A stretch of DNA of 64,000 nt from Candidatus Aegiribacteria sp. (lineage in GTDB: Bacteria > Fermentibacterota > Fermentibacteria > Fermentibacterales > JCC-6), in contig WTBT01000042.1 of assembly GCA_013138965.1 (NCBI GenBank), positions 1 to 64,000 on the forward strand. The letters are read 5' to 3'. A model generated the notes under the pieces. That model worked only from the letters and a program-made list of their open reading frames with translations. It did not search any database and was not told the DNA's origin. This document shows positions 4,742 to 57,380 of the stretch, piece after piece. Each line of letters begins with the position of its first letter. The first letter of the stretch is position 1. The translations under genes and the position numbers were made by a program.

Positions 4742-5640
4742 CGGGAAGTACACGCCTTCAGAGGTGCAAAAGATGTCCATTGATTGGGGACTTAGCAGCC
4801 AGAGCGGCAAGCCGATTGCTCTGAGCAAGATTCCCTTCATACTCAAGAATCCATTCTACATCGGATTGTTCAGCTACAAGGGGGAGATCCATGAAGGGAA
4901 ACATGAAGCCATAGTTTCCAGCGAATTGTTCGGGGAGGTTCAGAAAGTTCTCAAACGGAACTCTCGGGGAGGTTATCGCAAGGATGAGCGTTTTCCTTTC
5001 CGGCGGCTTATCACTTGTGGTCATTGCGGCTGCGCTATCACCGCCGGTACACAGAAGAAGCACAATTACTATCACTGCGGAAAACGCCGCGGCCCGTGCA
5101 GCCTTAAAACAATTCGCGAGGAAGCTCTGACTTCACTTCTGCGTCAGAGTATTCTCCGTGTTTCCCTCTCGGATCATTGTACCGAATGGATGTTTTCACA
5201 GATCGATGAACTGATGTATCAGGAGATGGAGCAGGTGGAGGATATCATCAGTTCAAAGAAACTTCGGCTTGCCAATCTGCAATCTAAGATAGAGCGCCTT
5301 CTCGACATTTACCTGGACGGTTCCCTTACTCGCGACGAATACACCGCTCGCAAGGAACAGTATGTCCTCGAGAAGACTGCTCTTACCTCTCAGATTGCAG
5401 AATATGAAGCGGGAGAAGCTTCGCGGTTTAAACCTGCGCGTGATTTCATAAGTGCTTCCAGGTTCAACCGCCTGGGCTGTGAATCTTGAGGATCTGAAAG
5501 ATTTCCATAAAAACATCGGTTCAAACCTCAGATTGGTCTCCCCTCTTTCTTCGATTAGCTTTCGGGTACTGGTTGCGGATGGACAGCGCAAAACCAGTCG
5601 GGGACAGATGTCCCCACTCGTGGATTTTGGGGGATTGAGC
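4742..5640 (+). pseudogene. Serine recombinase remnant lacking the catalytic N-terminus and frameshifted near 5450
   Basis: Frame after TAA reads TGKYTPSEVQKMSIDWGLSSQSGKPIALSKIPFILKNPFYIGLFSYKGE...LITCGHCGCAITAGTQKKHNYYHCGKR (recombinase zinc beta ribbon). C-terminal DFHKNIGSNLRLVSPLSSISFRV continues in another frame. Confidence 0.8.
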
Positions 5641-5960: not shown

Positions 5961-6945
5961 GTGATTTCAGCAAGTGCGGGTGATTCAGGTTAAATTTGCG
6001 CCGGAAACTCAATAACCTATTATTAGACTATGGATAAAGGATGCTGACAACAAAAACCCTTATGGTTATAGTTCAGCAGATCAGAATTGCTTTTTCAAGG
6101 AGAAATTATATGAACAATACAGTTGTGCTCTTTTCTGCACTTGCATTGACTCTGCTCATTGCTTCCTGTCTTCCTGAAGACCAGGCGCCGGGTACCGGCC
6201 CGGATTTCAGTACGGAGCTTCTGGTGGATACGGGTCGTACATATGGAGAGCTGGTTGCTGGAGAGAGTTCCACATTCACTCTCAGATGGACAGCCGCCGA
6301 TGATGCTGAGTGGTACGATATCAGAATATCTCCCCATCCCATCAACGATTCAAACTGGGATACCGCGCTGAGAATTGACTCTATTCCAGCAAGCGATACA
6401 ACTGATATGATTGCTTATGTGCAGGTGCAACCAGAGGTTTTTGCGAATACATGCATCTCATGCGGATTGTGTGTTGAAGCATGCCCTCAGGACGCCATGA
6501 GCCTTATTGACGGTAAAGCGGTAATCGATCTCAGCAAGTGTACTGCCTGCGGTGAATGCGTGAAAGTATGCCCTGTCAACGCGATTACCGACAGCCGTTT
6601 CGGGCAGTCTTACTACTTTGCGATGAGGGCCATGGGTTCAGGAAATACTCAATCCGAGGTTGTTTCAGCCTCGGGAAGCTACAGGCTTCGATACATGAAC
6701 CTTGAGTCCTGGTGTGGCAACTGTGCGTACAACTGTTTCATACTGCTTCCTGAATGCGGACCCGGATGCCCTGTAGACGCTATCTGGTACACACCCGCTG
6801 GGCAGGATTCCGGTCTTGTACATATTGATTATGATCTTTGCATAGACTGCGGCCAGTGCTATATCCAGTGCCATGAGTACGGGCAATGGTCGATAATGAA
6901 GGAGGTGGTTGCTGAATGAAAACACTGATACCGGCAGTTATGATT
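5961..6945 (+). repeat. Direct repeat unit 1 (~1 kb, upstream region plus polyferredoxin gene)
   Basis: Near-identical to 8055-9045, including the leader GGATGCTGACAACAAAAA..CTTATAGTTCAGCAGATCAGAATTGCTTTTTCAAGGAGAAATTATATGAACAATAC. Confidence 0.9.
6110..6919 (+). CDS. Lipoprotein polyferredoxin, copy 1 (beta-sandwich-like N-domain plus multiple 4Fe-4S motifs)
   Basis: Lipobox LLIASC; CISCGLCVEACPQDAMSLIDGKAVIDLSKCTACGECVKVCPVNAI and CIDCGQCYIQC; RBS AAGGAGA upstream of ATG 6110. Confidence 0.85.
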   Translation: MNNTVVLFSALALTLLIASCLPEDQAPGTGPDFSTELLVDTGRTYGELVAGESSTFTLRWTAADDAEWYDIRISPHPINDSNWDTALRIDSIPASDTTDMIAYVQVQPEVFANTCISCGLCVEACPQDAMSLIDGKAVIDLSKCTACGECVKVCPVNAITDSRFGQSYYFAMRAMGSGNTQSEVVSASGSYRLRYMNLESWCGNCAYNCFILLPECGPGCPVDAIWYTPAGQDSGLVHIDYDLCIDCGQCYIQCHEYGQWSIMKEVVAE

Positions 6946-8054: not shown

Positions 8055-9045
8055 GGGATTTCAGAAAGTGCAGTTGATTCAGGTAAATTACACCGGGAAC
8101 TTAATAAATTATTATCTGTCTATGAATACAGGATGCTGACAACAAAAATCCTTATGCTTATAGTTCAGCAGATCAGAATTGCTTTTTCAAGGAGAAATTA
8201 TATGAACAATACGGTTACGCTCTTTTCTGTACTTGCATTGACTCTTCTCATGGCTTCCTGTCTCCCTGAAGATCAGGCGCCGGGTACCGGCCCGGATTTC
8301 AGTACGGAGCTTCTGGTGGATACAGGCCGTACATATGGAGAGCTGGTTGCTGGAGAGAGTTCCACGTTTACTCTCAGATGGACAGCCGCCGATGATGCTG
8401 AGTGGTACGATATCAGAATATCCCCCCATCCCATCAACGATTCAAACTGGGGTACCGCGCTGAGAATTGACTCTATTCCAGCAAGCGATACAACTGATAT
8501 GATTGCTTATGTGCAGGTGCAGCCTGAAGTATTTAAGAATACATGCATTTCGTGCGGACAGTGTGTTGAAGCATGCCCCCAGGACGCCATGAGCCTTATT
8601 GACGGTAAAGCGGTAATCGATCTCAGCAAGTGTACTGCCTGCGGTGAATGTGTTAGAGTCTGCCCTGTAAACGCGATTACCGACAGCCGTTTCGGGCAGT
8701 CTTACTACTTTGCGATGAGGGCCATGGGTTCAGGCAATACGCGGTCTGAGGTTGTTTCAGCCTCGGGAAGATACAGGCTTCGTTACATGAACCTCGATAC
8801 CTGGTGTGGTGACTGTGCTTACGAGTGTTTCATACTGCTGGATTCATGCGGCCCCGGCTGCCCTGTCGACGCTATCTGGTACACACCGGACTGGAACACA
8901 CCCGGAGTGGATTCCGGTCTGATACATATCGATTATGACCTTTGCATAGATTGCGGCCAGTGCTTTATTCAGTGCCATGAGTACGGGCTCTGGTCAATAA
9001 TGAAGGAGGTGGTTGCTGAATGAAAACACTGATACCGGCAGTTAT
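8055..9045 (+). repeat. Direct repeat unit 2
   Basis: See unit 1 at 5961-6945. Confidence 0.9.
8202..9023 (+). CDS. Lipoprotein polyferredoxin, copy 2
   Basis: Lipobox LLMASC; CISCGQCVEACP...CTACGECVRVCP and CIDCGQCFIQC; stop overlaps next ATG. Confidence 0.87.
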   Translation: MNNTVTLFSVLALTLLMASCLPEDQAPGTGPDFSTELLVDTGRTYGELVAGESSTFTLRWTAADDAEWYDIRISPHPINDSNWGTALRIDSIPASDTTDMIAYVQVQPEVFKNTCISCGQCVEACPQDAMSLIDGKAVIDLSKCTACGECVRVCPVNAITDSRFGQSYYFAMRAMGSGNTRSEVVSASGRYRLRYMNLDTWCGDCAYECFILLDSCGPGCPVDAIWYTPDWNTPGVDSGLIHIDYDLCIDCGQCFIQCHEYGLWSIMKEVVAE

Positions 9046-9514
9046 ACTTGTTCTTGTCTCAACTGTTACGGCTTCCCTTACATTCTCGCAGGATGCCGGC
9101 GGAAGCGTCATCCAGTGGGACCCGTTTGAAGGCAGCTATGATTCACTGGTGCTTCGTTGCTCGGAGACAGTGTACGAAACAGAAGATCCCGGCTGGGGAA
9201 TCGTTCTCGCGACCGTATACCCCGATTCCAGCGGGGAATTTCCAGCATCCGTTCAGATTCCGGGAGCATTTATTGTTGACCCTGATAAATGCATTGCATG
9301 CGGCATTTGCATAAATCAATGCCCTACAGACGCAATAACAGAGGATATAGATGGAAAGGCTGTTATCGATCCCGATCTTTGCATAGCCTGCGGAATATGT
9401 GCGAACGTATGTCCTGTGGATGCCATTTTCGTACCATCTTCCGGTTTGTATTACGGTCTGTTCGGGGTATACGAAGAGAGTGTTGAGGAGTTTATCCAGG
9501 AGTCAGTTCAATGA
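9020..9514 (+). CDS. Secreted 2x[4Fe-4S] ferredoxin-like protein
   Basis: Sec-type signal MKTLIPAVILVLVSTVTASLTFS; CIACGICINQCPTDAI...CIACGICANVCPVDAI. Confidence 0.87.
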   Translation: MKTLIPAVILVLVSTVTASLTFSQDAGGSVIQWDPFEGSYDSLVLRCSETVYETEDPGWGIVLATVYPDSSGEFPASVQIPGAFIVDPDKCIACGICINQCPTDAITEDIDGKAVIDPDLCIACGICANVCPVDAIFVPSSGLYYGLFGVYEESVEEFIQESVQ

Positions 9515-9744
9515 CCCGAAAAGCAATAATAGTAACAACTGTATTACTTATTCTTGCCACCGTCGTGCTGGCTGATACCTTCTTCAGGGTTGACCGTTCC
9601 GTATGCACCGGATGCGGTGACTGCGAAGAGGTATGCCCTGTAGATGCGATAGAAATAATCGATGGCAAGTCTCACATAGACCCGGAAAAATGCATAGGTT
9701 GCGGGCTCTGTCAGGGGGTGTGCAGCTATGACGCGATTCGTTAA
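9511..9744 (+). CDS. Small secreted 2x[4Fe-4S] ferredoxin
   Basis: MTRKAIIVTTVLLILATVVLADTF signal; CTGCGDCEEVCPVDAIEI...CIGCGLCQGVCSYDAI; ATGA overlap with previous gene. Confidence 0.87.
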   Translation: MTRKAIIVTTVLLILATVVLADTFFRVDRSVCTGCGDCEEVCPVDAIEIIDGKSHIDPEKCIGCGLCQGVCSYDAIR

Positions 9745-9976
9745 AGCGCTCGCTGCAATAGCAGTCGTGTTCATTCTGTTTGTCGCCTGCAAGGGGCCTG
9801 TGGAAAGTACTCAGCTTCTTATCAATGCTGACGACTGCACCGGGTGCGGAGAGTGCATGGAAGTCTGCCCTTACAACGCCGTTGAGATTATCGATGGCGA
9901 TGCGGTTATCGATCCCTCCCTGTGTCATTTCTGCTACAGGTGTGTGGAGCAGTGCCCGGAAGGAGCGATATACTGA
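9728..9976 (+). CDS. Lipoprotein 2x[4Fe-4S] ferredoxin
   Basis: Lipobox FILFVAC; CTGCGECMEVCPYNAVEI...CHFCYRCVEQCPEGAI. Confidence 0.85.
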   Translation: MTRFVKALAAIAVVFILFVACKGPVESTQLLINADDCTGCGECMEVCPYNAVEIIDGDAVIDPSLCHFCYRCVEQCPEGAIY

Positions 9977-11175
9977 TGAAAACTTCTATATTTCTTGTCC
10001 TTCTCCTGCTTCCGGCGCTGGCTATGGCGGTGTCCCTTGATGGATGGATGGATTTTCAGACCGGAGGGGACAGTCTTTCTCCCGAAATGGGCAGGCTTGA
10101 TCTGGGAGGTCTGCTGAAGGGCGGCAACTGGAGCCTTGTAATTCACGAAAGATATTCCCACGAGGACAGTACAGGTATTTTGCCAAGGATACTGAACTCC
10201 TACAGCAGGACAGATGTAGATTTCCTGATTGAGGCCGGACCTGTACGTATAAATCCTGATGTCTGCTGGACGGTTGATCTGGGAGACAACAAGCCGGAGA
10301 TGGTTCTTCCCGGGCAGGCTGGAGTCGCTTACAGAGAGGGATTTATAAGACCAGGTCTTTCCCTTGAAGTGGATATTGCAGAGAATTATCATCTTTTTGC
10401 CAGGGGATTGTATTGGAACAGGGACCTGAAACAGGAAGATGGTTATGATCTCGCGTGGACGGAATCCCGTGTAAGTGGCGGACTCTCCTGTGAAACACCG
10501 GGGTTAACATTAAGCATGTCAGGTTTGTGGCACAAGACGAACTCGGATCTCATTGATTACGAATCAACATGGAGCAGGTTTGATATTGCGCTTTCCACTA
10601 AGCCGCAATCCCTTCCTGCCAACTTTTATGTGACAGGTGATGTTACATACTCATTCTACGGTGGAACCAACTATCTTGGTGACGACCTGGCTGACAGGTT
10701 CACGTCCAGGATCAGGTTTGTTCGCATGATAGTTCCCTCACTTGCGGTGAACACAACTTTCGAGTCCGTAATTGATTACGACGGAGTAATCAGATCAGCT
10801 TGTAATTCAGTTGAATCGAGAATTGTATACCGATTCATGAGATCACGTGACATTACTTCCTCAGTAGTGCTTTTCGGTAAACTCTCCAGATCATCAATAA
10901 GAACGGAGCGGGCGGGCGTATTTTCTCGGATTAACCTTTACAGAGGGCTTTCCCTTCTATTAGAGGCTGAAGCGCGTGTTACACCGACATCGGTTGCGGG
11001 GGCAGGTCCTAACAGGAAGAGGTATGTGTTCGGCCCGGGGCTTGAGTACCAGTTCGGGACTACAGCCCGGATATGGGGCATGTTTGAGCAGGAGAGAACC
11101 AACCTGGAGAAGAATCAGAACTGGTGGCGTGTGAGAGCAGGGCTGGAGTTCTATCCCGGTTCTTTCAGTTTCTGA
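9976..11175 (+). CDS. Putative outer-membrane beta-barrel protein
   Basis: Signal peptide MKTSIFLVLLLLPALAMA; alternating amphipathic strands; terminal strand ending ...RVRAGLEFYPGSFSF; start overlaps preceding stop (TGATG). Confidence 0.65.
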   Translation: MKTSIFLVLLLLPALAMAVSLDGWMDFQTGGDSLSPEMGRLDLGGLLKGGNWSLVIHERYSHEDSTGILPRILNSYSRTDVDFLIEAGPVRINPDVCWTVDLGDNKPEMVLPGQAGVAYREGFIRPGLSLEVDIAENYHLFARGLYWNRDLKQEDGYDLAWTESRVSGGLSCETPGLTLSMSGLWHKTNSDLIDYESTWSRFDIALSTKPQSLPANFYVTGDVTYSFYGGTNYLGDDLADRFTSRIRFVRMIVPSLAVNTTFESVIDYDGVIRSACNSVESRIVYRFMRSRDITSSVVLFGKLSRSSIRTERAGVFSRINLYRGLSLLLEAEARVTPTSVAGAGPNRKRYVFGPGLEYQFGTTARIWGMFEQERTNLEKNQNWWRVRAGLEFYPGSFSF

Positions 11176-11253: not shown

Positions 11254-12390
11254 TTGTTTGACGGTTTCGGTACCGGGCTGACCCTGGGGCTTGCCACAGG
11301 AACAGCCTGCCTCGCTTCATGCGGTCCCATATACGCATCTTATCTGATGGGCGAGAGACGAACGGGGCTCCAATCTCTGTGGGTCATTCTCAAACTGAAC
11401 GGCGGCAGGTTTATAGCTTACGCCACCTTCGGCGCCCTGGTGGGAATGCTGGGGGGAGCGATACCGATTAACGTACGGATTCCCTTTGCTTTCTCAGGAT
11501 ACATACTGTTCTCCATCTATCTGCTTCTGTCAGTCGTGAGGGTTCGCAGAACTTGTTCCGGGTGCCATACGGGGAAGTTTCTACAGATAACAAAAAGTCC
11601 ATTCCTGCTTGGCATTTTCACCGGCTTTTCGGTGTGTCCCTCTTTCCTCATCGCGCTTACAGGGGCCTTTGGATCAAGCGGGCCGCTCAGCGGCATGATG
11701 CTCTTCATAGGCTTCTTTGCTGGAACCACTGTATACATGCTTCCCTTTGCCTTCTTCGGCCTTCTAACCATGAAGGACTGGATAACCAAGGCTGCCAGGA
11801 TGATAGCAGTAGTAGTAGCAATTTATTTCGCAGCCACGGGGATTCGAGGTCTTGTAACATGGGTTACCCGGCCATCCCTGAGAAGTCAGTACGAACAGAA
11901 TGCTGTACAAACGTCTCAAATATCGGACGCAGACACAGGTAACATCTTCTCGATAGAGGACTCGGATACGCTGTACATCGTATCCTTCAGTAACGATGTT
12001 GATGATATGGGAAGTCAGCTTGCGGAAGATATGACGGGGGCAGGACTGCCTTCCATCAAACTGGTAAAGACAACAGCGGAAGGGTGGCAGGAAGCGGTGG
12101 CTCCAATTCCGGGGCTTTCAGCCGTAATAGTCCCGCATTGGGTTGACGACAGGTCAGGCATAGGAACCGTGCAGTGGCAGGAAACCTTTACAGCGCATCT
12201 GGTGGATATGCAAATGAGAACCTTTGCCGTTGAGTATCAGCCCTACTGCGCTGACAGGGTACGAGGGATTCAGTCTTTTCTGGAAAGGTACAGTTTCAGA
12301 TGTCACCCCGATTCAGGATTTGTTTTCCTGATGATGAACCCTCTGGCCTGTGCTCCTTCGGAGTGTTCAACCTGTGATATTCCTCATTAG
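11254..12390 (+). CDS. DsbD/CcdA/UreH-like multi-TM protein with C-terminal soluble domain
   Basis: LGLATGTACLASCGPIYASYLMG..., second repeat LLGIFTGFSVCPSFLIALTGAF; C-terminal Cys-containing domain; TTG start. Confidence 0.65.
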   Translation: MFDGFGTGLTLGLATGTACLASCGPIYASYLMGERRTGLQSLWVILKLNGGRFIAYATFGALVGMLGGAIPINVRIPFAFSGYILFSIYLLLSVVRVRRTCSGCHTGKFLQITKSPFLLGIFTGFSVCPSFLIALTGAFGSSGPLSGMMLFIGFFAGTTVYMLPFAFFGLLTMKDWITKAARMIAVVVAIYFAATGIRGLVTWVTRPSLRSQYEQNAVQTSQISDADTGNIFSIEDSDTLYIVSFSNDVDDMGSQLAEDMTGAGLPSIKLVKTTAEGWQEAVAPIPGLSAVIVPHWVDDRSGIGTVQWQETFTAHLVDMQMRTFAVEYQPYCADRVRGIQSFLERYSFRCHPDSGFVFLMMNPLACAPSECSTCDIPH

Positions 12391-12436
12391 ATTAGTAATG
12401 TTGCATAATCTGATATTCCATGCGTAAGGAGTGAAT

Positions 12437-13639
12437 ATGCCGGAGAAAGCATTATGCGGTTATTCAGGACCTAAAGTAAAATCCGACTGCAGGATTTCAT
12501 ACGAGAATACGGATACAGAACTCCTGATAACAGTGAACACTGAAGGATCAAAAGAAATTCTTGAGAAAGCTGTCAGGGATACTGCAGCGCGGATGGGCAT
12601 TTCCAGAGGCATGGTAGAGATTGATGACTGCGGAGCTGCTCCATTTGTTGCCGCCGCAAGGTTTGAGGCCGCGGTCAGGAAGGTGCTTGGGAATAGTTTT
12701 CCTCCTCTTCCTCCAGCCGGGAATATAGAGCCTTCAGGAAGGAATATTCCAAGGAGGTCCAGACTTTACGTTCCCGGTAACCGGCCTAGGTTCATGGAAA
12801 AAGCCATGTCTGCAGGAGCTGATGGTGTTATTCTGGACCTTGAGGACAGCGTATCTCCCGACAGAAAATTCGAAGCAAGAATTATGGTGGCTCATGCACT
12901 GGCGAACCTTGATTTCTGTGGTATGGAGGTAATGGTTCGAATAAATCAGGGTGAATACGCTATTGATGATCTCGACTGGATAGTGCCTCAGCCGGTTCAG
13001 CATATTCTCATTCCCAAGGTGGAAATTCCCGACCAGGTTTCCATAATAAGGGATATGGTTGAGAAGGTTTCGGAGCTTTGCGGGCGGGAAGCGGGAGTAT
13101 GGCTCATGCCCATTATAGAAAGTCCTCTGGGAGTGTTCAATGCCCTTGATATTGCCAGGTCTGTCCCCGATGAGTCTGCAGCCCTCACTCTCGGGCTCCA
13201 GGACCTTTCCGCTGAGATAGGGGTTACTCCCACCGCCGAAGGCACGGAGAGCTTTACCGCAAGAAGTTTGATAGTTCTGGCGGCAAGAGCAGCCGGGCTC
13301 CAGCCCATTGATACGGTTTATGCGGACGTAAAGAACGAGGATGGGCTCAGAGAGTCGATTCGACGCGCAAAAGTACTCGGTTTCGTGGGAAAGGGATGCA
13401 TTCACCCCGGACAGGTACCCATCATAAACGAGGGTTTTCTGCCGGGTAACGCAGCGCTGGACAAGGCTAAACGGATAGTTTTAGCTATGGAACAGGCTGT
13501 GTCTGAAGGGCTGGGAGCAGTTGCTCTTGGTTCGAAAATGATTGACCCTCCGGTAGCGAAGCAGGCTCAGGTAGTTATGGATAACGCCATCAGACTGGGG
13601 TTGATCTCAATTAACTGGCGGGAAGAGGAGAAGGAATAA
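12437..13639 (+). CDS. CitD-CitE fusion (citrate lyase acyl-carrier plus beta-subunit-like)
   Basis: N-terminal ~85 aa CitD-like (CGYSGPKVKSDCRI ... DDCGAAPFVAAARFEAAVRKVLG). C-terminal CitE/HpcH: RSRLYVPGNRPRFMEKAMSAGADGVILDLEDSVSPDRK...GFVGKGCIHPGQV. Confidence 0.85.
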   Translation: MPEKALCGYSGPKVKSDCRISYENTDTELLITVNTEGSKEILEKAVRDTAARMGISRGMVEIDDCGAAPFVAAARFEAAVRKVLGNSFPPLPPAGNIEPSGRNIPRRSRLYVPGNRPRFMEKAMSAGADGVILDLEDSVSPDRKFEARIMVAHALANLDFCGMEVMVRINQGEYAIDDLDWIVPQPVQHILIPKVEIPDQVSIIRDMVEKVSELCGREAGVWLMPIIESPLGVFNALDIARSVPDESAALTLGLQDLSAEIGVTPTAEGTESFTARSLIVLAARAAGLQPIDTVYADVKNEDGLRESIRRAKVLGFVGKGCIHPGQVPIINEGFLPGNAALDKAKRIVLAMEQAVSEGLGAVALGSKMIDPPVAKQAQVVMDNAIRLGLISINWREEEKE

Positions 13640-14181: not shown

Positions 14182-14205
14182 AATGAGCCCGAAGGGGGCT
14201 TTATT
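14182..14205. terminator. Intergenic hairpin between convergent genes
   Basis: AGCCCGAAGGGGGCTTTATT hairpin with trailing T-rich sequence. Confidence 0.5.
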
Positions 14206-15700
14206 ATTCCATCGTCCTTCTATCGTGATCATGGGAAAAGTGCTTCCTGGTAAACCGCTTCCATAGACCTATTCTGCCAAGAAAGCTGAGAATCGCGCCG
14301 TAGAAGCAGAGGTACTTGCAGAAAAACCTGGGGAAGAATACCAGAATAGCCATCGCGGCAATTGCGCCGACGAAGGATCCCACTATGAAAAATGAGAAGA
14401 TGGTATGGAAAGGATCGTACTTGCAGAAGAATGCTGTCGGGATTGAGGATTCAAACTGACCGCTGCTGACCAGAAGAAGGAAACTGAAGAATGCAATCCC
14501 AAGCAGGTACCGAAACCCCGAAAGTATTACATGTACTCTGTGGGAAAATTTCGGAGGCCTGGGAACATTAAGCTTCCCCAGCAGATCCTGCAGGGCTCCG
14601 AACGGACAGACCCATCCACAGTAGACCCTGTCGAAAAAAGCACTCCACAATATCGGGAGAATAAGAACAGCAATCCCGAGGCCCCCCAGAAAGATCAATC
14701 CGCCGGGAAGCAGCGCATACTGCATTACGCCCAGGGGGCAGAAACACCCCTGCACCAGGAAACCGAGCACTGTTAAGGATATAATCTGAACTGTGATATG
14801 AGCAATTTTGCGTTTGTGCCTGTCCTTCTTTCTTCGGCCTCTGAAATGCCTTTTCAGGATTGTAGCGGTGAGCAGAAGAACGGCAGTGGCAATCAGTACG
14901 ATCAGTGTTCTGCGAATTCCTCCCCCGCCCGGATTCGTGCAGCCGTTCCAGCCTCTGAAATTAGGGCAGAGAGGTTTGTCGGGTGATGGACACGCAGTTT
15001 CCGGAGCAAGTCCCAGAGGACATCCGCTCAAACGAAGCTCAGAAGCGTTCGTCCTCCCGGTTACAGTCTCACCGGTTGCAGTGGAAGAGTCAGGTAATGC
15101 TACGGGATTGTCACAGTATAAATCAATGTCTGCGTCAATGAAAAAAGCGCAGAAGGGGCTGTCCTCAGGACAGGCTTGCTCAGGCGAGTATCCCAGGGGA
15201 CATGTTAAGGCCGGGGCGATTGTTTCCTCTAGTGTTACCGTATCGATGGATACGGAATCCGGGAAGAAGTCAATCTGGATTTCCCCGGTTGATGCTGATG
15301 AATCGGCGAATACCTCGACAGTCTCTGAACTGTCCGCAGATGATGGTTCAGGTGCCCAGGTTACTGTGTCGGGATGTACCTCCGTGAAAACAGTGTCATC
15401 AGGAAGGGATATTTCATCTCCGGCAGGCTCCGGCAGACTGTCAGAGGCAGGTCCGGTTTCAGTATCCAGGCTGTCCGAAACAGTTTCAGATGTGTCAGAG
15501 GGAGATTCTTCTGATTGTTCGGAGCTTGCGACGGGCTGAGGGCCGGGGTTGTCGCAAAGAGCGTCTCCGTCACCATCGACATAAAGGGCGCACGAAGGGC
15601 TACCTTCGGGACAGGCGTCCTCCGGAGGGAAGCCAAGCGGACATGATGCAAGCAGAACCGAACTCATCAGGAACAATACTGTTGCGGATATATTCATCAT
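14204..15700 (-). CDS. NapH-like membrane 4Fe-4S protein with N-terminal triplicated Cys-rich motif
   Basis: CGWVCPFGALQDLLG and CKYLCFYGAILSFLG motifs and several TMs. N-terminal motifs CPLGFPPEDACPEGSPSCALYVDGDGDALCDNP, CPLGYSPEQACPEDSPFCAFFIDADIDLYCDNP, CPLGLAPETACPSPDKPLCPNF..CTNP. Confidence 0.75.
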   Translation of the reverse strand: MMNISATVLFLMSSVLLASCPLGFPPEDACPEGSPSCALYVDGDGDALCDNPGPQPVASSEQSEESPSDTSETVSDSLDTETGPASDSLPEPAGDEISLPDDTVFTEVHPDTVTWAPEPSSADSSETVEVFADSSASTGEIQIDFFPDSVSIDTVTLEETIAPALTCPLGYSPEQACPEDSPFCAFFIDADIDLYCDNPVALPDSSTATGETVTGRTNASELRLSGCPLGLAPETACPSPDKPLCPNFRGWNGCTNPGGGGIRRTLIVLIATAVLLLTATILKRHFRGRRKKDRHKRKIAHITVQIISLTVLGFLVQGCFCPLGVMQYALLPGGLIFLGGLGIAVLILPILWSAFFDRVYCGWVCPFGALQDLLGKLNVPRPPKFSHRVHVILSGFRYLLGIAFFSFLLLVSSGQFESSIPTAFFCKYDPFHTIFSFFIVGSFVGAIAAMAILVFFPRFFCKYLCFYGAILSFLGRIGLWKRFTRKHFSHDHDRRTME

Positions 15701-45942: not shown

Positions 45943-46916
<974 letters not shown>

Positions 46917-46917
<1 letters not shown>

Positions 46918-47765
46918 TGAGCAACCAGCAGGGAAGAAATACGAGTGTTACTGTAATAGAGCCTCCAGGCAAATGGCATTTCTTTGATTTTTCAGAATTC
47001 AGAACTCATCACGAACTCTTATATTTCCTTACATGGCGTGATATTAAAGTAAGGTATAAGCAAGCCCTTCTTGGTATTGGATGGGCAGTGATACAACCCA
47101 TTATGCTTATGATTGTTTTCACATTCATCTTTGGTAAAATGGCTCAAGTTAATTCTGAGGGAGTTCCATATCCAATTTTCGCTTTTGTTGCAATCCTTCC
47201 ATGGAATCTGTTCTCTACTTCACTCAATAAGGCGGGACAGAGTCTAGTGAGTAATGCTGGTCTTTTACAAAAGGTTTATGTTCCAAGGCTCATTATTCCA
47301 GTTGCTTCAGTTTTACCGAATCTTGTGGATTTCTTTATAGGAAGCGTTATTCTCGGCGGTATGATGATATACTACCATTCTAGTGTTCATCTTTCATGGA
47401 CGATACTTCTTTTACCAATCTTTACTTTGCTTGCTCTCTTATCTGCGCTTGCGGCAGGATTATGGCTTGCCGCATTGAATGTGAAGTACAGAGATATTAA
47501 GCAGGTTAGTCCATTCCTTGTGAGGTTATGGATGTGGGTATCGCCAGTTGCATATTCTGCAACAGAAGTGCCTACGGGCATATGGAAAGTTATTTATGGA
47601 CTTAATCCCATGGCAGGAGTAATTCAGGGCTTCAGATGGGCTATAGTTGGCGGGGAAAGGCCTGATGTACTTATCTTTCTCTCGATAGGAATAGTACTAA
47701 TTCTATTAATTACAGGCTTGATCTATTTCCGTAAAACAGAAGCATATTTTGCAGATATTGTATAA
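46917..47765 (+). CDS. ABC-2 polysaccharide export permease (Wzm-like)
   Basis: TWRDIKVRYKQALLGIGWAVIQPIMLMIVFTFIFG. Confidence 0.93.
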
Positions 47766-47813
47766 TAATACTAATTATACGAATTCACTTAGCGTGAATG
47801 TGTAAGGAAATAA

Positions 47814-49118
47814 ATGAGTGATACAGTTATTAAAGTAGAAGGTTTAGGAAAGCAATACAACATAGGTGCGTTGCATAAACTGCAGCAGCACGATACCCTT
47901 CGTGATAAGATAGCTTCTGGCTTTAAATCTGCAAAGAAACATATAGCACATAGGAAAAGTACAATGCTAGGGGCAGAAAAATTCTGGGCACTTCGCGATG
48001 TATCTTTCGAAGTAAAACAGGGTGAAGTACTTGGAATAATAGGTAAGAATGGTGCCGGTAAGAGTACATTACTTAAGATGCTATGCAGAGTTACATCTCC
48101 AACAGAAGGTAGAGCAACACTTAAAGGCAGGGTCGGAACTCTACTTGAGGTTGGAACTGGGTTTCATCAAGAGCTTACCGGCAGAGAAAACATCTATTTA
48201 AGTGGTGCTATACTTGGTATGAATAAAGACTATATTGAGCGAAAAGAAGATGAGATCATTAATTTCAGTGGAGTTGAGAAGTTCATAGATACTCCGGTTA
48301 AAAGATATTCAAGCGGAATGAGAGTAAGACTGGGATTTGCAGTAGCAGCACACCTTGAACCTGAGATTTTGCTGATTGATGAAGTGTTGGCGGTTGGAGA
48401 TGCTGCTTTTCAGAAAAAATGTTTTGGTAAAATGGAAAACATAACTAAGCAGGGAAGAACTGTTCTCTTCGTTAGCCACAATTTGATTTCTATTAAACAC
48501 ATGTGCCCGAGAGTTCTTCTTCTTGAAGAGGGTCGGATTATATGCGATGATAAACCCGAAAAAGTCATTTCAAAATACCTTCAGGATACCCAAGATCAAA
48601 CAGAGACAGGGAGAGTATATTCAATTAACTATCAAGTAATAGAAGAGAATTGTCATAACGATTTCAAGATAACGAATGTAGGATTAATGAGTGTCAATCA
48701 CTCTGAATTAAACTCTTTTCACACAAAAGATTCGCTGATAATCCAAATTGAATATCAAGCTTCAAAACAATTTACGTCACAAGCTTTTGCGGTACACATA
48801 AACAATCGTTATCATAGCAGAGTCATTCAACTAAATACCACTCCCATAAGTGGTTATCACATAGACACTCTTGGAAAAATCGGGAAGATTGAACTTCTTC
48901 TCAAAGATATTCCTCTTACCGCAGGTCGATATTTCTTCGATATTGGCTTCGTCAGGGAAAGAATTGGATGGATAGTTAAATTAGAAAAGGTGATAACTCT
49001 AAATATAGGTTTAAGAGATGTATATAACAGTGGTATGGCACTAGATAGCAAGCGTGGTGTTCTTGTTGTTAAACACTCTTGGTCCCATAAAATTTGCGAG
49101 CCACAGAATAGTTATTGA
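47814..49118 (+). CDS. Polysaccharide ABC transporter ATPase with Wzt-type C-terminal domain
   Basis: GIIGKNGAGKSTLLKMLCRVTSPTEG; RYSSGMRVRLGFAVAAHLEPEILLIDEVLAVGD; long C-terminal beta domain. Confidence 0.94.
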   Translation: MSDTVIKVEGLGKQYNIGALHKLQQHDTLRDKIASGFKSAKKHIAHRKSTMLGAEKFWALRDVSFEVKQGEVLGIIGKNGAGKSTLLKMLCRVTSPTEGRATLKGRVGTLLEVGTGFHQELTGRENIYLSGAILGMNKDYIERKEDEIINFSGVEKFIDTPVKRYSSGMRVRLGFAVAAHLEPEILLIDEVLAVGDAAFQKKCFGKMENITKQGRTVLFVSHNLISIKHMCPRVLLLEEGRIICDDKPEKVISKYLQDTQDQTETGRVYSINYQVIEENCHNDFKITNVGLMSVNHSELNSFHTKDSLIIQIEYQASKQFTSQAFAVHINNRYHSRVIQLNTTPISGYHIDTLGKIGKIELLLKDIPLTAGRYFFDIGFVRERIGWIVKLEKVITLNIGLRDVYNSGMALDSKRGVLVVKHSWSHKICEPQNSY

Positions 49119-49121
49119 TAC

Positions 49122-50135
49122 ATGTTCAGAAAAACAATTTCTAGAATATTGTTGAGAAAACGGGTTAAAACTAAATCAAGAAGTACTGATAGGAGTCACC
49201 CTTGGTATGAAGGGTTCAAATTTAACGTAGTTGAAGAAACGGATCAGAAAACTTATTTTACTTCATTACCTCCACCTATACTGTTTCTTTCTCGAGGACA
49301 TTCAGGAACAAGAGCATTATCACATTTACTTCAGCGAGCGGGTATTTATATGGGTAATATTATTGATCCATATTGCCTAAATCAAACCGAGGACGCTTTG
49401 TATTGGGTTTATGGTTTTCAAAGAGAATTGGTTCCTCAGTTATTTAAATATGGTAAAGGATGCAGTAACATACCGGACTTGGTAGATAGTGTTGGGAAAG
49501 TTTGTATTTCTCACCATATGTCTGCGTATAAAGGAGGTCCGTGGGGTTTCAAAACCTGTGCAGGTAGTTTCTCGCACCAGCTATACAATTATCTTTTCCC
49601 TAATGCTAAATATATCTACCTTCTGCGTGATGGTAGGGATGTTATTCTTTCCAATAATGGCAAATTTCATATGGCAGGACATTCTCCTATTACAACTCCT
49701 CATTGGGAGTATTTTCGAATTATAACATCTGGAATAAGCAATGATTTCTCTCAATGGCCTTTTCAATTTAATCATGAAGATGAAATGGAACAACGTACAT
49801 GGCAAAATCGATTTTGGATTCAAGCGAAATCATGGAGAGAAGACATCCGAATGATGGAATTTCTGAAAGAAACTTCTCAACTTTCTGATTCAGTATATAC
49901 AATTAAATATGAAGAACTTTGCGCTAATCCGACTCGTTCTATCAAAGACTTGTTTAATTTCCTAAATATTCCGATCAATGCAGATGTTGTATCTTTTGCA
50001 TCAAAACATTTTTATACAACATCTGTTTCCAAGTGGAAGAATTGGAAAAACTATGTATTTGATACAAACGAAGATCTAGATAAAATATTCGATGAAATGA
50101 AAACAGAACTAATCTTGACTAAGTATTTAACTTGA
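49122..50135 (+). CDS. Sulfotransferase-like protein
   Basis: PILFLSRGHSGTRALSHLLQRAG (5'-PSB loop-like) and YIYLLRDGRDVILSN (3'-PB-like). Confidence 0.7.
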   Translation: MFRKTISRILLRKRVKTKSRSTDRSHPWYEGFKFNVVEETDQKTYFTSLPPPILFLSRGHSGTRALSHLLQRAGIYMGNIIDPYCLNQTEDALYWVYGFQRELVPQLFKYGKGCSNIPDLVDSVGKVCISHHMSAYKGGPWGFKTCAGSFSHQLYNYLFPNAKYIYLLRDGRDVILSNNGKFHMAGHSPITTPHWEYFRIITSGISNDFSQWPFQFNHEDEMEQRTWQNRFWIQAKSWREDIRMMEFLKETSQLSDSVYTIKYEELCANPTRSIKDLFNFLNIPINADVVSFASKHFYTTSVSKWKNWKNYVFDTNEDLDKIFDEMKTELILTKYLT

Positions 50136-50388
50136 TGTGGATTCATAGTGCCAAGTAAAACACTGATAACAGGCGGCAGTTTTCATTCGGCAGATTCTCT
50201 TTTTGTATTTAGTAATAGAGACCGATGAAAGAAGCATACAGAAAGTTTCAATGGGATTGAGAAAATATTAAAACGAAGTTCTTGTTGATGGAGAACGAAT
50301 AGAAAATTCATAAATATGTACAAAATGCTCCATATAAATATTAATTATTGATAGAGTATTATTTCACAATAAGCAAGGATGTAATTCG

Positions 50389-50745
50389 ATGACAGACAAA
50401 GCAAAAGTAACACTTATGTCGTTTGGGTTCAAATATGGAATGCCAAATGCTAATTACTATTTTGATGTGGGGTTCATTAGAAATCCCGCCCGAGAAAATG
50501 GATGGGGATTCTTTTCCGAACCTAATGAAAAGATGTACAGATACGTGCTTGAACAAGAATCGGTCAAGGAGTTTATCGACAACGTCATTCCGTTGATTCT
50601 ATTCCTGATTTCCATTGATCAGCATCAGGTTTTCGCGTTTGGCTGCAACGCAGGGCGTCATAGGAGCTATCTTCTTGTAGAGAAAATTGCAAGGGTGTTG
50701 AAGGAAAAGGGTGTTGTAACTCAAATTGTTCATAGGGATGTATAA
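50389..50745 (+). CDS. Stand-alone RapZ C-terminal-domain-like protein
   Basis: MSFGFKYGMPNANYYFDVGFIRNPARENG...FAFGCNAGRHRSYLLVEKIARVLKEKGVVTQIVHRDV, the RapZ-C signature (SFGFKYG.P..AD..FDVRFLPNP...IGCTGGRHRSV..AE.....V...HRD). Confidence 0.85.
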   Translation: MTDKAKVTLMSFGFKYGMPNANYYFDVGFIRNPARENGWGFFSEPNEKMYRYVLEQESVKEFIDNVIPLILFLISIDQHQVFAFGCNAGRHRSYLLVEKIARVLKEKGVVTQIVHRDV

Positions 50746-50746
50746 A

Positions 50747-52468
50747 ATGAAAATGAATAACAGAATTTCTGAGGTCTGGGACGCACATGGCAGACTTGTT
50801 CCAATATCCTCATTAAGTATTCCCAACAGAACAGCAGATGTAGCTGCGATTGTCGTAAGCCGCAATAGACCGGACTTAACCGACCAGATCTACGAGCAAC
50901 TGAAAAATATGGGGAAACACCTTTCTATGGATATTTTTATTGTGGAGATGGGGTCGGACGAAGATAAAAGAAGTAAATATACGACTATATACTATGCCGA
51001 TGAAGATTACCGCGGCAAATGTTATGGTCACAATGTTGGTCTACGCCAGGCTATGCTTAAGGGGGAATATAGGTATTACTGGTTCATGATGAATGATGTC
51101 GTTTATGAGGAAGGCGCGGACGCTGTCGGTGAGCTTGTTCGGATTGCAGATAAATATCCGGATCTAGGACTATTAAGTCCAGCTGAGCCTATTGGAGGTG
51201 CGAATAAAGATGGAAAACCAATTGAAAATTCGGAATTCCATTACATTTTCTCGCCAGACTATCTTTCGGTACTGATACGCGGAGAAATTATTGAAAAGAT
51301 CGGATTTTTCAATCCGGAATTCAAGTATTGCTGGGGTGCGATTATAGAATATGCTTACAAGCTTTACAAAGCGAATTATAAGGTAGCATATATCGATAAG
51401 GTCTGCATGAAGCATCTTGGAAGTACAACATATGGTGTTGTAAAAAATACCATTTCTAAAGAAGAGTACAGGAAGCACGCAAAGAAATTCGCAACACTGT
51501 ATTTTCGTGAACACTATGGTAGTGAATGGGACTCATTATTCCGAGAAGCGGCGACCCCACAAATTGAGTGTGGGCAAATGAAAAGGACTCGCAAATACTG
51601 GGAAGAAGTTTTTTCAATATCTAAACCCGAAACTACCGACAAACTAGACAATCTCTTCGCCAGACTAAAGAACCTGCTTAAAAGAAAATACGAACAAAAT
51701 AAAGATACAGTTCTTAAGGAGGAAATTAAAAAACTTAATCCGTGGTATTATTCGGTAACGATTAAGAACGTAATGGTAACGCCTGGCATTGGCTCAAAGC
51801 AAACTCCGGAAGCACTTGAAAGTCGTGTGCTGTATAGATCCCCGCTTCTTGTTGGAGAAGTAGTGAAATTATTCGATTTCAAGGGGAAAAGTCTTCTCGA
51901 TCTTGGTTCGAACTGCGCATACTGGTCCGCAAGATTTGCTGAGCATGGCGCGCAAAAGCTTCTAGCTGTTGAAGGGCGAATCGATTATATAAAACAAGGG
52001 AATCTATACTGGGATAATAATGACTTCATGGAAAAAGATTCTTATGAGTTTATACAGGGCAATGTAATGGATAGTGCGACATGGGATTTAATAGAATCAA
52101 AGGGGCCGTTTGATTTCACACTTTGCTGTGGTATCTTATATCATATTCCCGATTATAAATATGTACTAGAGAAAATCGCAGAAGTTACAACTGGTGGAAT
52201 ACTTGTAGATACAAGAGTTTCAGAAGGTGAAGCAATGGTCTCTGAACCAGGAGGCTATTGTTTCGATGCAATTATAGAAACTAGGAATAAAAAGAACCCA
52301 AACCTTAGGAAATTGATAAGAATATTAGAAGGACTTGAATTCACAATCCATCAACTCAAGATTGATATGTTTACACCCATTGGACTTAAGGGAGCCGACG
52401 ATTATAATGAATCTCGTAGGGTTGCTCTATTGGCGTTGAAGACAGATAAATCAAGCATGAGATTGTGA
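50747..52468 (+). CDS. GT2 glycosyltransferase fused to SAM methyltransferase
   Basis: N-terminal VAAIVVSRNRPDLTDQIYEQL...; C-terminal GKSLLDLGSNCAYWSARFAEHGAQKLLAVEGRIDYIKQ (CmoB-like). Confidence 0.8.
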   Translation: MKMNNRISEVWDAHGRLVPISSLSIPNRTADVAAIVVSRNRPDLTDQIYEQLKNMGKHLSMDIFIVEMGSDEDKRSKYTTIYYADEDYRGKCYGHNVGLRQAMLKGEYRYYWFMMNDVVYEEGADAVGELVRIADKYPDLGLLSPAEPIGGANKDGKPIENSEFHYIFSPDYLSVLIRGEIIEKIGFFNPEFKYCWGAIIEYAYKLYKANYKVAYIDKVCMKHLGSTTYGVVKNTISKEEYRKHAKKFATLYFREHYGSEWDSLFREAATPQIECGQMKRTRKYWEEVFSISKPETTDKLDNLFARLKNLLKRKYEQNKDTVLKEEIKKLNPWYYSVTIKNVMVTPGIGSKQTPEALESRVLYRSPLLVGEVVKLFDFKGKSLLDLGSNCAYWSARFAEHGAQKLLAVEGRIDYIKQGNLYWDNNDFMEKDSYEFIQGNVMDSATWDLIESKGPFDFTLCCGILYHIPDYKYVLEKIAEVTTGGILVDTRVSEGEAMVSEPGGYCFDAIIETRNKKNPNLRKLIRILEGLEFTIHQLKIDMFTPIGLKGADDYNESRRVALLALKTDKSSMRL

Positions 52469-53487
52469 CAATGCTAGATAGAATCCTTAATCTGTTCGCA
52501 AGACCGGGGCTGAATAAAGACAGACTATTTTCTTCGATTCAGATTGAACTGACAAATCACTGCACCAATACCTGCAGATATTGTCCTCAGTCAATATGGC
52601 GTTCTAACTGTGAAAATGGAGTATTTAATCGGGAAAAGGGCTATATGGATAAAGCCTTTTTCAAGGAGGTTTTTACTAAAGCAGTAAAGTATACAAAACT
52701 TGTGAACTTTAGTTTTTTTGGTGAACCAATGATGCATCCAGATTTCCTTGAAATCATGGACTATGTTGGCAATAACAAAGACAATGTCCGGATTGTAATT
52801 AATACAAACCTATCACTTGCAACGCGAGAAATATTCGAAAAACTCATAGAAATATGTATAACCGAGCTTAGATTGAGTATTGATTCGAGTACATCTGAAA
52901 CCTTTGAAAAATTACGACCCGGGAAGATATGCTTCGATTTGAATGGTAATACTATTGAAGGGAATCGTTTTGAGGATGTGACAGCAAAAGCGGAATATTG
53001 GCTCGGACTTTCAGATCATAGGCCCACAAGGCATGTATTTGCTGTTAATAGCCAGAACGTCAAAGAAGTTAAGGATTTTTTCAAGAAGTGGCATTCATTA
53101 CTTGGAAAAGATGACTCAATACTTTTCAAGCGGATTTTATCTTATGGTGGAAATATGGCAGATGATATGGTTGAAAATCATGAATGCAATGTTTGGCGAT
53201 ACAATATGCTTACGATCGATTGGCAAGGGAACATGTCACCATGCAATCTTGATGTGAATATGGCTCTAAACCTCGGTAATATACGAAATGTTTCTCTCGG
53301 AGGACTAAGCAAATCAAAGAAATATAAAGAACTTAAAAGGATGTCTATGTCAAAAAGTATCCAGCCCTGCAAATCGTGCTTTGATGCTAACAATTGGGAT
53401 AGTAACATTCTATTAAGATCAACGGATGTATGGAATGAGAGTCTATTCTCAGCAATATATCATACTCCTGAGGTGGATTCGGATTAG
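52465..53487 (+). CDS. Radical SAM/SPASM protein
   Basis: IELTNHCTNTCRYCPQS (CxxxCxxC); C-terminal Cys cluster CNVWRYNMLTIDWQGNMSPCNLD...CKSCFD. Confidence 0.9.
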   Translation: MTMLDRILNLFARPGLNKDRLFSSIQIELTNHCTNTCRYCPQSIWRSNCENGVFNREKGYMDKAFFKEVFTKAVKYTKLVNFSFFGEPMMHPDFLEIMDYVGNNKDNVRIVINTNLSLATREIFEKLIEICITELRLSIDSSTSETFEKLRPGKICFDLNGNTIEGNRFEDVTAKAEYWLGLSDHRPTRHVFAVNSQNVKEVKDFFKKWHSLLGKDDSILFKRILSYGGNMADDMVENHECNVWRYNMLTIDWQGNMSPCNLDVNMALNLGNIRNVSLGGLSKSKKYKELKRMSMSKSIQPCKSCFDANNWDSNILLRSTDVWNESLFSAIYHTPEVDSD

Positions 53488-53529
53488 CTTATGGATATAT
53501 TAAGGCTCTTCAGGTTTTTGCATACATAA

Positions 53530-53664
53530 GATCTTGACAGAATTGTTCATAGTTCATACAGGATTGAACTGGGAAGCGGAAGCATGAAAGAAAGCATGAG
53601 GAAGGTTTATTCCGAGATTGGAGAAGATGGTAATAAAAAACAGAAAGAGGACGAAAAGCATTAA
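53530..53664 (+). pseudogene. IS21-family IstB C-terminal remnant
   Basis: Frame reads DLDRIVHSSYRIELGSGSMKESMRKVYSEIGEDGNKKQKEDEKH*, resembling the IstB C-terminus (LDRLVHNAYRIELKGESMRK). Confidence 0.65.
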
Positions 53665-53831
53665 TGGACTGTGCCGCTGAAATGAGAGATTTTTCTCAGA
53701 AAACCGGGGTTGATTTTGGAAAGATAACTCCGGCAAGAAGACTGGAAACAATGACCGGCGTGAGCACTTTGAGGTTGTTTAGTCGAATACAGAGTTATCA
53801 AACAAAGCAATAAGAGTTCTAAGGAGAAATA

Positions 53832-54512
53832 ATGAAATGCAGTATTTATGTATCATCGTATCGAATCAAAGACCAAAAACTAATTGACGGCTTTACATCA
53901 GAAAAAAGTAATACATTTCTAGTGAGTTTTCCAAGAACAGGTAGTCATTGGCTACGAATGATAATCGAACTGTATTTTCAACGACCAACATTAGTGAGAA
54001 CCTTTTATTATCCTGAAAAAAAAGATTATATATTATTGCATACACATGATCTGGATCTGGATATCCAGAGGGATAATGTTATTTACCTTTATAGAAATCC
54101 TGTGGATACTATGTTTTCGCAATTAAAGTACCATAAAGAAGATATTGAGAATAAAGAAAGAATAATATACTGGACATCATTGTATGGGAAACACCTTGAG
54201 AAATGGTTAATTGAGGAAGAATTCACAAAGAAAAAAACTGTTATTCGATATGAACAGATGAAAACTAATCTTCATATAGCATTTCAGAAAGTATGTCAAC
54301 ATTTTGAAAAAGAGTTTGATGTTGATTTACTTGATGAGGTCTCATCTAAAGTAACAAAAAATGAAGTTAAGAAGAAAACACTACATGATCAACAAGTTAT
54401 TAAATTAACAAAGTTATATTCTGATGAAAGAAAGTATTTCAAGAGCGAATATTCAAATCTCGTTTTGGAGAATCTTTTTGATGGTAGAGAGCAATTGAGG
54501 AATATAATTTAG
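53832..54512 (+). CDS. Sulfotransferase-domain protein
   Basis: TFLVSFPRTGSHWLRMIIEL; VIYLYRNPVDTMFSQLKYH; VIRYEQMK. Confidence 0.82.
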   Translation: MKCSIYVSSYRIKDQKLIDGFTSEKSNTFLVSFPRTGSHWLRMIIELYFQRPTLVRTFYYPEKKDYILLHTHDLDLDIQRDNVIYLYRNPVDTMFSQLKYHKEDIENKERIIYWTSLYGKHLEKWLIEEEFTKKKTVIRYEQMKTNLHIAFQKVCQHFEKEFDVDLLDEVSSKVTKNEVKKKTLHDQQVIKLTKLYSDERKYFKSEYSNLVLENLFDGREQLRNII

Positions 54513-54798
54513 TAATAAAAGGTAATACTTAGTAAATATAATACATAAGATAATAAACTTAATAAGCGTGTATCGTAATATATTAGGTAAATATTCTATT
54601 AACATTAACTGGATTCTTCATGCAGCAATAGTTATTCGAGGATATATGGTTATGCATTCAATAATAGCATATGATAACTTCTCAATAATACCTTCGAGTG
54701 AAGTGAAGCATACTAAGTAGAATCTTTTCAAAATCGGTTCCATGCCGTATCGATAAGTAGTAAATGGATATCAGTAAGAATTAGGTGTAACATATATA

Positions 54799-56325
54799 AT
54801 GAATAACATTAAACTAAGTGCTGTCGTTGTTACTTTCAATGAATCTGCTCATTTGGCTGAATGCCTTGAAAGCCTGAAATTTGCTGACGAATTAATAGTT
54901 ATTGACCTGGGTTCTACTGATACTTCTGTAGAGATTGCGGAATCATGTGGGGCAAGAGTTATAGCACACGATTGGGTTCCTGTCATTGAAATGATAAGGG
55001 AATGGGCTTTTGAGCAGGCAACTTATAACTGGATTGTTCATTTAGATCCGGATGAGGTCTTTCCTCCAGCATCAGTACAAGTAATTAAAAAGTTGATATT
55101 AGCTGACGATGGATTAGCCTATATCGGACTACCTCTTAGAAATTACTATATGGGGAAACCTGTTATGCATGGTAGATGGGGAAGTATACTAAGCCCTGCA
55201 AGAATTATTAACAGAGAGCGTACAATTCTAAATGATGTAGTTCATGCAGGTTTTGGTGTACGGCAGGGATTTCATAGCCATAGATTTGAGCCATTATCAG
55301 TTGACGAAATTATTAAACACTATTGGATTGATAGTACTAAGCAGTTTAAGGAAAAGCACCTCAGATATTTGCAGCATGAGGGAAGGGCAATGAAGCTAAG
55401 AGGGTATAGATTCAATATTATCAAGGCAACTATGTCTTCAATTGCAGCGTTTTCAAGTTCATTAGTCAGGAAGTACGGAATACTAATGGGTAAAACTGGA
55501 ATTGATCTTGCATGCAAATGGAGCTGGTACACCTGGAATAGATGGAAGCAATTAGAATTATACGAAGAGCAGAATAATAAAGATAATAACATACTATGCG
55601 TTCAAGATATTAACCCCCGAAGATCATGGCTCAGTAAATTGAAATGTAGCAAGTTTGTGCGATTCTGCAAGAAGGCATCAGGATATACTTGGCTAAAGAG
55701 CAGGAATATTCACAAGAACTATATTTATCAATGTGTACAACAGATTAACAAACAATCAGAGATCCATACCGCTGAATCGGTACTAATTTCTGATATGCCC
55801 CTTATTGAAACACTGAAATCTTTCCGTAATATCAGATCAATAGAAAGAAACTTATGGTCCAATATTCGATACATAGAATATGATCGAAAGGAATCTGGTA
55901 AAAACATATTAAATTCAATCTCGCTTGATGATTACGCCTATGTAGTGATTGTATCTTTAATCGAATATTTAGGGATCTCTGTCGATCCGAGATCGAAAGA
56001 TTTTAAACCGGATCTTGATCTAGAGTTTATGGTGAATCTTAGGCAAAAGTTGACAACAAAGGGAAAAGTATTTCTAATACTGCCTGTATCGTGCGATCAT
56101 TTATTCATCGGACAGCAGCGAGTGTATGGAAAGCTAAGGCTTAAGAAGTTATTCAAAGGTTGGAATCTAAATGAGCAATGTTTTTTTAGTCTTGATAAAT
56201 CCGGAAATTGGTTACCCGTAGAAGAAAGTGAAGTACTTAAAGTAAAAGCAACAAGAAGATATAAAAACATTGGATGTTTTTTACTTGAAAGAACGAGTAC
56301 AGATCAGGATAATGAAAATAGTTGA
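54799..56325 (+). CDS. GT2 glycosyltransferase with long C-terminal extension
   Basis: LSAVVVTFNESAHLAECLESLKFADELIVIDLGSTDTSVEIAESCGARV. Confidence 0.88.
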   Translation: MNNIKLSAVVVTFNESAHLAECLESLKFADELIVIDLGSTDTSVEIAESCGARVIAHDWVPVIEMIREWAFEQATYNWIVHLDPDEVFPPASVQVIKKLILADDGLAYIGLPLRNYYMGKPVMHGRWGSILSPARIINRERTILNDVVHAGFGVRQGFHSHRFEPLSVDEIIKHYWIDSTKQFKEKHLRYLQHEGRAMKLRGYRFNIIKATMSSIAAFSSSLVRKYGILMGKTGIDLACKWSWYTWNRWKQLELYEEQNNKDNNILCVQDINPRRSWLSKLKCSKFVRFCKKASGYTWLKSRNIHKNYIYQCVQQINKQSEIHTAESVLISDMPLIETLKSFRNIRSIERNLWSNIRYIEYDRKESGKNILNSISLDDYAYVVIVSLIEYLGISVDPRSKDFKPDLDLEFMVNLRQKLTTKGKVFLILPVSCDHLFIGQQRVYGKLRLKKLFKGWNLNEQCFFSLDKSGNWLPVEESEVLKVKATRRYKNIGCFLLERTSTDQDNENS

Positions 56326-56404
56326 TTAGGTATGGGTAAGAATTTAATCATTAACATAGCTAATTATCAGGATTACTCTTGCTTGCATATTCAGGAACAA
56401 AATT

Positions 56405-57298: not shown

Positions 57299-57380
57299 CG
57301 TTTTGGAGTCGACAAGTATATGCGAATAATAGAATTTGATACTGAGTGCTTAGAACATATTATATCACTATACTATTTTA

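Follow-up and report, generated by a model that had tools for sequence, protein, structure and literature searches.

A conserved operon of exported ferredoxins and an outer-membrane beta-barrel in Candidatus Fermentibacterota: a possible iron-sulfur module for envelope electron transfer

The porin-cytochrome conduits (MtrCAB, MtoAB, PioAB and PCC) are encoded by operons that combine exported redox proteins, some of them lipoproteins, with an outer-membrane beta-barrel, and the locus described here shares this arrangement. One iron-sulfur protein already known to take part in extracellular electron transfer beside such a multiheme porin complex is PioC, the HiPIP of PioABC in Rhodopseudomonas palustris (PMC10304953). 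No closer precedent for Fe-S in an outer-membrane conduit is known. Like the proteins considered here, PioC is an exported [4Fe-4S] protein that goes with an outer-membrane porin complex; unlike them, it acts as a soluble HiPIP of the periplasm in the service of a multiheme conduit, in which the hemes are not replaced. Periplasmic multi-[4Fe-4S] proteins also occur in NapGH- and HybA-type modules, in the case of NapGH together with a NapH-like inner-membrane partner, but these are Tat substrates with another domain layout and no barrel. Tat dependence of periplasmic Fe-S proteins has been described as obligate (PMC10924467). The published Fermentibacteria are anaerobic fermenters with a Gram-negative envelope from anoxic, often sulfidic sites (PMC5763382; PMC4846661), and the fermenters in one of these studies are without a respiratory chain (PMC5763382). 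The portion of a digester study that is cited here ascribes electron export in many phyla to pili and to multiheme cytochromes, and Fermentibacterota are not among the examples named in that portion (PMC7382037).

We analyzed a window of 64,000 nucleotides (the whole stretch of DNA under study) from a Candidatus Aegiribacteria genome (G000; 2.9 Mb, 94% complete). A sequence-only reading had claimed five overlapping genes between positions 8202 and 11175, and this arrangement was confirmed, with overlaps of 4 bp between FdA and FdB and between FdB and FdC (ATGA in both cases), 17 bp between FdC and FdD, and 1 bp between FdD and the barrel gene (TGATG). The adjacent DsbD_2 gene, which that reading had overlooked, was counted in the unit because it lies 3' of the barrel gene in the loci that extend that far. 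The CitD-CitE-like gene that follows is probably a neighbour outside the system. Its product resembles citrate lyase CitE but starts with a CitD-like (acyl carrier) region, and is possibly a CitD-CitE fusion.

Table 1. Predicted features of the gene block and its surroundings, with positions in the window.
Feature	Positions	Strand	Description	Basis
FdA	8202-9023	+	lipoprotein, FN3-like beta-sandwich, 4 clusters	Fer4, lipobox LMASC, AF2, Foldseek
FdB	9020-9514	+	Sec-exported, short beta-rich N-domain plus 2[4Fe-4S]	Fer4, signal features, Cys alignment
FdC	9511-9744	+	small Sec-exported clostridial-type 2[4Fe-4S] ferredoxin	Fer4, signal features, Cys alignment
FdD	9728-9976	+	small acidic 2[4Fe-4S] ferredoxin, lipoprotein	Fer4, lipid Cys21
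Outer-membrane beta-barrel	9976-11175	+	signal peptide, about 20 strands, arginines conserved on the inner face	AF2, Foldseek
DsbD_2 (CcdA-like)	11254-12390	+	TM thiol/disulfide transporter, extra C-terminal domain	PF13386
CitD-CitE-like fusion	12431-13639	+	next gene after DsbD_2, kept in most genomes	
NapH/NosR-like membrane protein (Fer4_5)	14204-15700	-	candidate associated part	Pfam, NapH/NosR models
Second FdA copy	6110-6919	+	upstream of block	91% DNA identity

Elsewhere in the window, the second FdA copy adjoins an apparent serine-recombinase gene fragment (4764-5489, by eye), and additional FdA copies are also present in the genomes G021, G026, G036 and G003. A long series of apparent surface polysaccharide genes, again recognized by eye, occupies positions 45961-63977 and includes an apparent ABC transporter, glycosyltransferases and sugar epimerases.

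The Fer4 family of Pfam was detected in each of FdA-FdD (E 1e-18 to 1e-19) and was not found in the barrel protein. The paired cluster motifs that had been ascribed to four proteins are present as such in FdB, FdC and FdD, but FdA has four motifs, which gives 4 + 2 + 2 + 2 = 10 predicted [4Fe-4S] sites. All 16 ligand cysteines are invariant in FdA (26 sequences) and all eight in FdC (33 sequences); one of the eight is absent from 4 of 28 FdB sequences and from 1 of 35 FdD sequences. Two CxxCxxCxxxC(P) motifs and a ferredoxin fold place these proteins with the clostridial-type 2[4Fe-4S] ferredoxins, and no CXXCH motif occurs in FdA-FdD or the barrel protein of the window. Mature FdB, FdC and FdD are acidic, with 3 basic against 24 acidic residues in FdB and 2 against 11 in FdD.

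The AlphaFold2 model of FdA (mean pLDDT 72.8; about 90 in the sandwich and poor past residue 200) has a beta-sandwich formed by residues 55-105 and 168-197, with a 2[4Fe-4S] ferredoxin inserted between its strands and two further clusters on the C-terminal side. The inserted domain matches the clostridial ferredoxin 1fca (1.4 Å, 47% identity) in Foldseek, and the sandwich itself resembles secreted enzymes and SoxY-type sandwiches only weakly; a weak match to fn3 of Pfam was obtained for only 2 of 26 FdA members. A domain that folds around a ferredoxin as modeled would favour maturation once the protein has crossed the membrane.

Signal features are conserved among the orthologs of all five proteins and the N-termini are positively charged, in keeping with the export proposed from the window. 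FdB, FdC and the barrel protein have Sec-type signals (the FdB and FdC cleavage sites were assigned by eye), and FdA and FdD have a lipoprotein cysteine, which is invariant both in FdA (Cys20 of the lipobox LMASC, 26 sequences) and in FdD (Cys21, 35 sequences). The claim that no twin-arginine motif is present holds well beyond the window: by eye and by pattern, no ortholog set (24-34 orthologs per gene) contains the Tat consensus, and RR is found in the n-region of only 7 of 33 FdC orthologs. FdA-FdD therefore lack the twin-arginine signal peptide of the Tat-exported periplasmic Fe-S proteins. TatC is found in the phylum, though the signals of FdA-FdD are not of the Tat kind, so a missing Tat system does not account for the use of Sec. 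Both the Fe-S signature and the export of FdA-FdD are well supported by prediction. Among the papers covered by a literature search on exported ferredoxins, none was relevant.

The barrel protein of the window has no match in Pfam, NCBIfam or the PDB sequences, although weak matches to outer-membrane-barrel profiles were obtained for a few of its orthologs. The AlphaFold2 model, built with 31 sequences, does form the barrel that had been anticipated (pLDDT 87.4, pTM 0.76); it has about 20 strands, nearly all with a dyad pattern of polar residues inside and apolar residues outside, and no plug domain. The barrel fold is thus well supported by prediction. Porins rank first in a Foldseek search of the PDB (OccK/OpdK, E 4e-8); the Mtr-complex barrel MtrB (6r2q_B) comes in at rank 14 (E 6e-7, TM 0.49). 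The nearest solved folds are generic substrate-specific porins (OccK/OprD), with MtrB one among many, and the matches support an outer-membrane barrel, not homology to MtrB. MtrB has 26 strands, and the Fermentibacterota barrel differs from it in its strand number and in showing no sequence similarity. The block thus resembles the MtrAB type in having an outer-membrane beta-barrel in the operon, but it encodes no exported multiheme c-type cytochrome with several CXXCH motifs, and its barrel showed no homology to MtrB or PioB by Pfam, PDB sequence or the Foldseek comparison. Having no heme, the block falls outside the porin-cytochrome family, although it may still work like such a conduit.

The conserved inward-facing residues of the barrel include ten arginines, which fit docking of the acidic ferredoxins but also an anion channel. 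When averaged, the inward positions are not more conserved than the outward ones, and the case for a plug based on lumen conservation was dropped. Estimated from strand number alone, a ferredoxin of 55-60 residues would just fit into a 20-strand barrel. Relatives of the barrel were found in neither 343 genomes outside the phylum nor plasmids, and close relatives lie on Candidatus Aegiribacteria and Candidatus Fermentibacteraceae contigs. A citrate porin, a reading prompted by the CitE neighbour, was set aside; its sole support is the OccK-like fold of the barrel.

The DsbD_2 protein scores 74.4 bits against PF13386 (E 1.5e-20; cut-off 24.9) and contains the conserved membrane cysteine pair Cys23/Cys128, as expected of a DsbD_2/CcdA thiol transporter. 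It departs from the known DsbD_2/CcdA transporters in an extra C-terminal cysteine domain (Cys371 and Cys374 invariant, Cys366 nearly so) and in its linkage to exported ferredoxins. The other invariant cysteines lie at positions 19 and 23 in TM1, at 101 and 104 in a predicted cytoplasmic loop and at 128 in TM4, and the positive-inside pattern suggests an N-out/C-out topology. None of the 42 phylum genomes has a match to Cytochrom_C_asm, which was detected in 9 of 14 controls; the phylum appears unable to make c-type cytochromes, and the CcdA-like DsbD_2 is therefore unlikely to serve cytochrome c. The search for DsbA gave two weak partial matches and no credible candidate in the phylum, so that cysteines in the periplasm may remain reduced.

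A genome of another phylum (G044) encodes a Sec-exported 4x[4Fe-4S] protein (L110:9703-10323, - strand) whose gene is directly followed by a DsbD_2 gene of the same subfamily (L110:9092-9688, - strand), with no barrel homologue. Of the matches to the Fermentibacterota subfamily from outside the phylum, this DsbD_2 ranks second, and it too is extended at the C-terminus in a similar way. The pairing was seen in none of about 70 other DsbD_2 loci, most of which are without a ferredoxin and where the Fe-S neighbours are mainly CcoG-like. Linkage to exported ferredoxins was accordingly rejected as a trait of all DsbD_2 and is restricted to the subfamily. Because the pairing tracks the subfamily, we assign this DsbD_2 to the maturation of exported ferredoxins, for which the one case outside the phylum is thin support; its place beside the block points to a possible route of maturation for ferredoxins exported by Sec. 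At another locus (L111:9343-9990, + strand), a DsbD_2 gene that adjoins a selB-like gene is interrupted in frame by a TGA where a Gly is otherwise conserved, which may reflect a sequencing error, a pseudogene or recoding.

The NapH/NosR-like gene is a convergent neighbour of the block in most genomes and is present in 38 of 42. Its product matches Fer4_5 and the NapH/NosR models, with CX3C motifs in the membrane part and three conserved four-cysteine repeats (CPLGxxPExAC...C...DxDxDxxCDNP) in an exported N-terminal region. It is a plausible inner-membrane electron donor, but a tentative one, as the gene is not co-transcribed with the block.

To establish how widely the block is kept, we compared 42 Fermentibacterota genomes, all within one order. 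FdA-FdB-FdC-FdD-barrel together with DsbD_2 is found in 36 of the 42 and in 9 of 9 genera, and the gene order is constant over three families, with barrel identity down to about 28-35%; the conserved neighbourhood expected from the sequence-only reading thus extends throughout the phylum. Every locus with intact FdC and FdD genes keeps the 17-bp overlap between them. The 1-bp overlap of FdD with the barrel gene is almost as constant, the exceptions being a broken barrel frame (G010) and an annotation artefact (G036). This shared order and these overlaps across three families and nine genera suggest coupled synthesis. For pairs without dS saturation, dN/dS is 0.06-0.27 for all six genes, and this, with the persistence of order and overlaps in three families, argues that the block is not due to chance. 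The barrel, FdA and DsbD_2 are absent from the same six draft genomes. In two of these (G015 and G027), the contigs stop inside the neighbouring CitE gene, where the block would begin, so missing assembly accounts for them; co-loss was dropped as evidence, and the block is probably universal in the phylum. The block is therefore phylum-wide, real and, as far as we searched, undescribed.

We consider that the block is best explained as a conserved Fe-S envelope electron-transfer module of Candidatus Fermentibacterota that most likely reaches the outer membrane, and give this reading a probability of roughly 0.45. The lipoproteins FdA and FdD and the soluble or loosely attached FdB and FdC would pass the inner membrane unfolded through Sec, and their [4Fe-4S] clusters would be inserted outside the cytoplasm, in a periplasm seemingly without DsbA and in habitats described as sulfide-rich. 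DsbD_2 would carry reducing equivalents from the cytoplasm and keep the cluster cysteines reduced, in a role like that of CcdA in cytochrome c maturation. Electrons would pass along the ten clusters between a donor in the inner membrane, most plausibly the NapH-like neighbour, and the barrel in the outer membrane, and FdD, perhaps with FdC, would dock to or inside the barrel so that electrons could exit or enter the cell. Cluster loading, extracytoplasmic maturation, the role of DsbD_2, the ferredoxin-barrel contact and the direction and partners of electron flow are the parts that we infer. Envelope electron transfer by the block is likely, and passage through the barrel is plausible.

The presence of DsbD_2 next to the block, though cytochrome c maturation is absent, counts for this electron-chain reading, as do the conserved order, overlaps, cluster ligands and signals, the inward arginines facing acidic ferredoxins, and the lack of a credible DsbA. 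Against it count the Tat-dependence rule for periplasmic Fe-S proteins (PMC10924467), the porin-like nearest folds of the barrel, with an arginine lining that suits an anion channel, the even conservation of inward and outward positions, the separate transcription of the NapH-like gene, and the description of published Fermentibacteria as fermenters (PMC5763382). The earlier suggestion of ferredoxins in place of hemes gains weight from the absence of Cytochrom_C_asm from the phylum, which, like the absence of a heme motif from the block, separates the locus from the porin-cytochrome conduits; passage of electrons across the outer membrane through the barrel is not supported by the barrel model, which is nearest to generic porins, with MtrB one match among many. 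The fuller proposal of a heme-free Fe-S outer-membrane conduit, in which Sec-exported ferredoxins are loaded outside the cytoplasm with the aid of DsbD_2 and docked to the barrel in a phylum without c-type cytochromes, is more tentative.

The ferredoxins might instead be periplasmic Fe-S carriers that link periplasmic enzymes, such as a periplasmic hydrogenase or those of sulfur or polysulfide reduction, with the barrel a porin for a soluble substrate or product. The export of clostridial-type ferredoxins and lipoproteins agrees with this, as do the similarity of the barrel to OccK/OprD carboxylate channels and the periplasmic [FeFe]-hydrogenase reported in Aegiribacteria MLS_C (PMC4846661), and electrons would have no need to exit the periplasm; but the block is without any conserved enzyme gene, and the 1-bp FdD/barrel overlap in nearly every genome is tighter than a general porin requires, so we regard this as somewhat unlikely. 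We think it improbable that the Cys-rich exported proteins serve in metal or sulfide handling, scavenging or storing iron, Fe-S or soft metals while the barrel moves a metal chelate. Ten sets of cysteine ligands in the envelope and conserved inward arginines able to bind anionic chelates would suit such a role, but the CxxCxxCxxxC(P) spacing is kept exactly, as is the fold of clostridial ferredoxins, beyond the needs of metal binding, the barrel model has no plug domain and the block has no metal transporter. That the N-terminal hydrophobic segments are uncleaved anchors, with the ferredoxins facing the cytoplasm, would gain from the FdB and FdC cleavage sites having been read by eye, but it is very improbable given that the positively charged N-termini predict an N-in/C-out orientation, that the lipobox cysteine is invariant in FdA and FdD, and that the FN3-like sandwich of FdA is typical of extracytoplasmic proteins.

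If the conduit reading is true, it would overturn both the rule that exported [4Fe-4S] proteins depend on Tat and cytoplasmic folding and the rule that multiheme cytochromes are the basis of Gram-negative outer-membrane conduits. Anaerobes that lack c-type cytochromes would have a way by which they could gain access to extracellular electron acceptors or partners, and searches for electroactive microbes would gain a marker besides CXXCH. Even without a conduit, a phylum-wide set of Sec-exported polyferredoxins with a thiol transporter makes extracytoplasmic Fe-S assembly directly testable. For Candidatus Fermentibacterota, the block may amount to a "wire" of iron-sulfur proteins across the cell envelope that substitutes for the usual heme wire.
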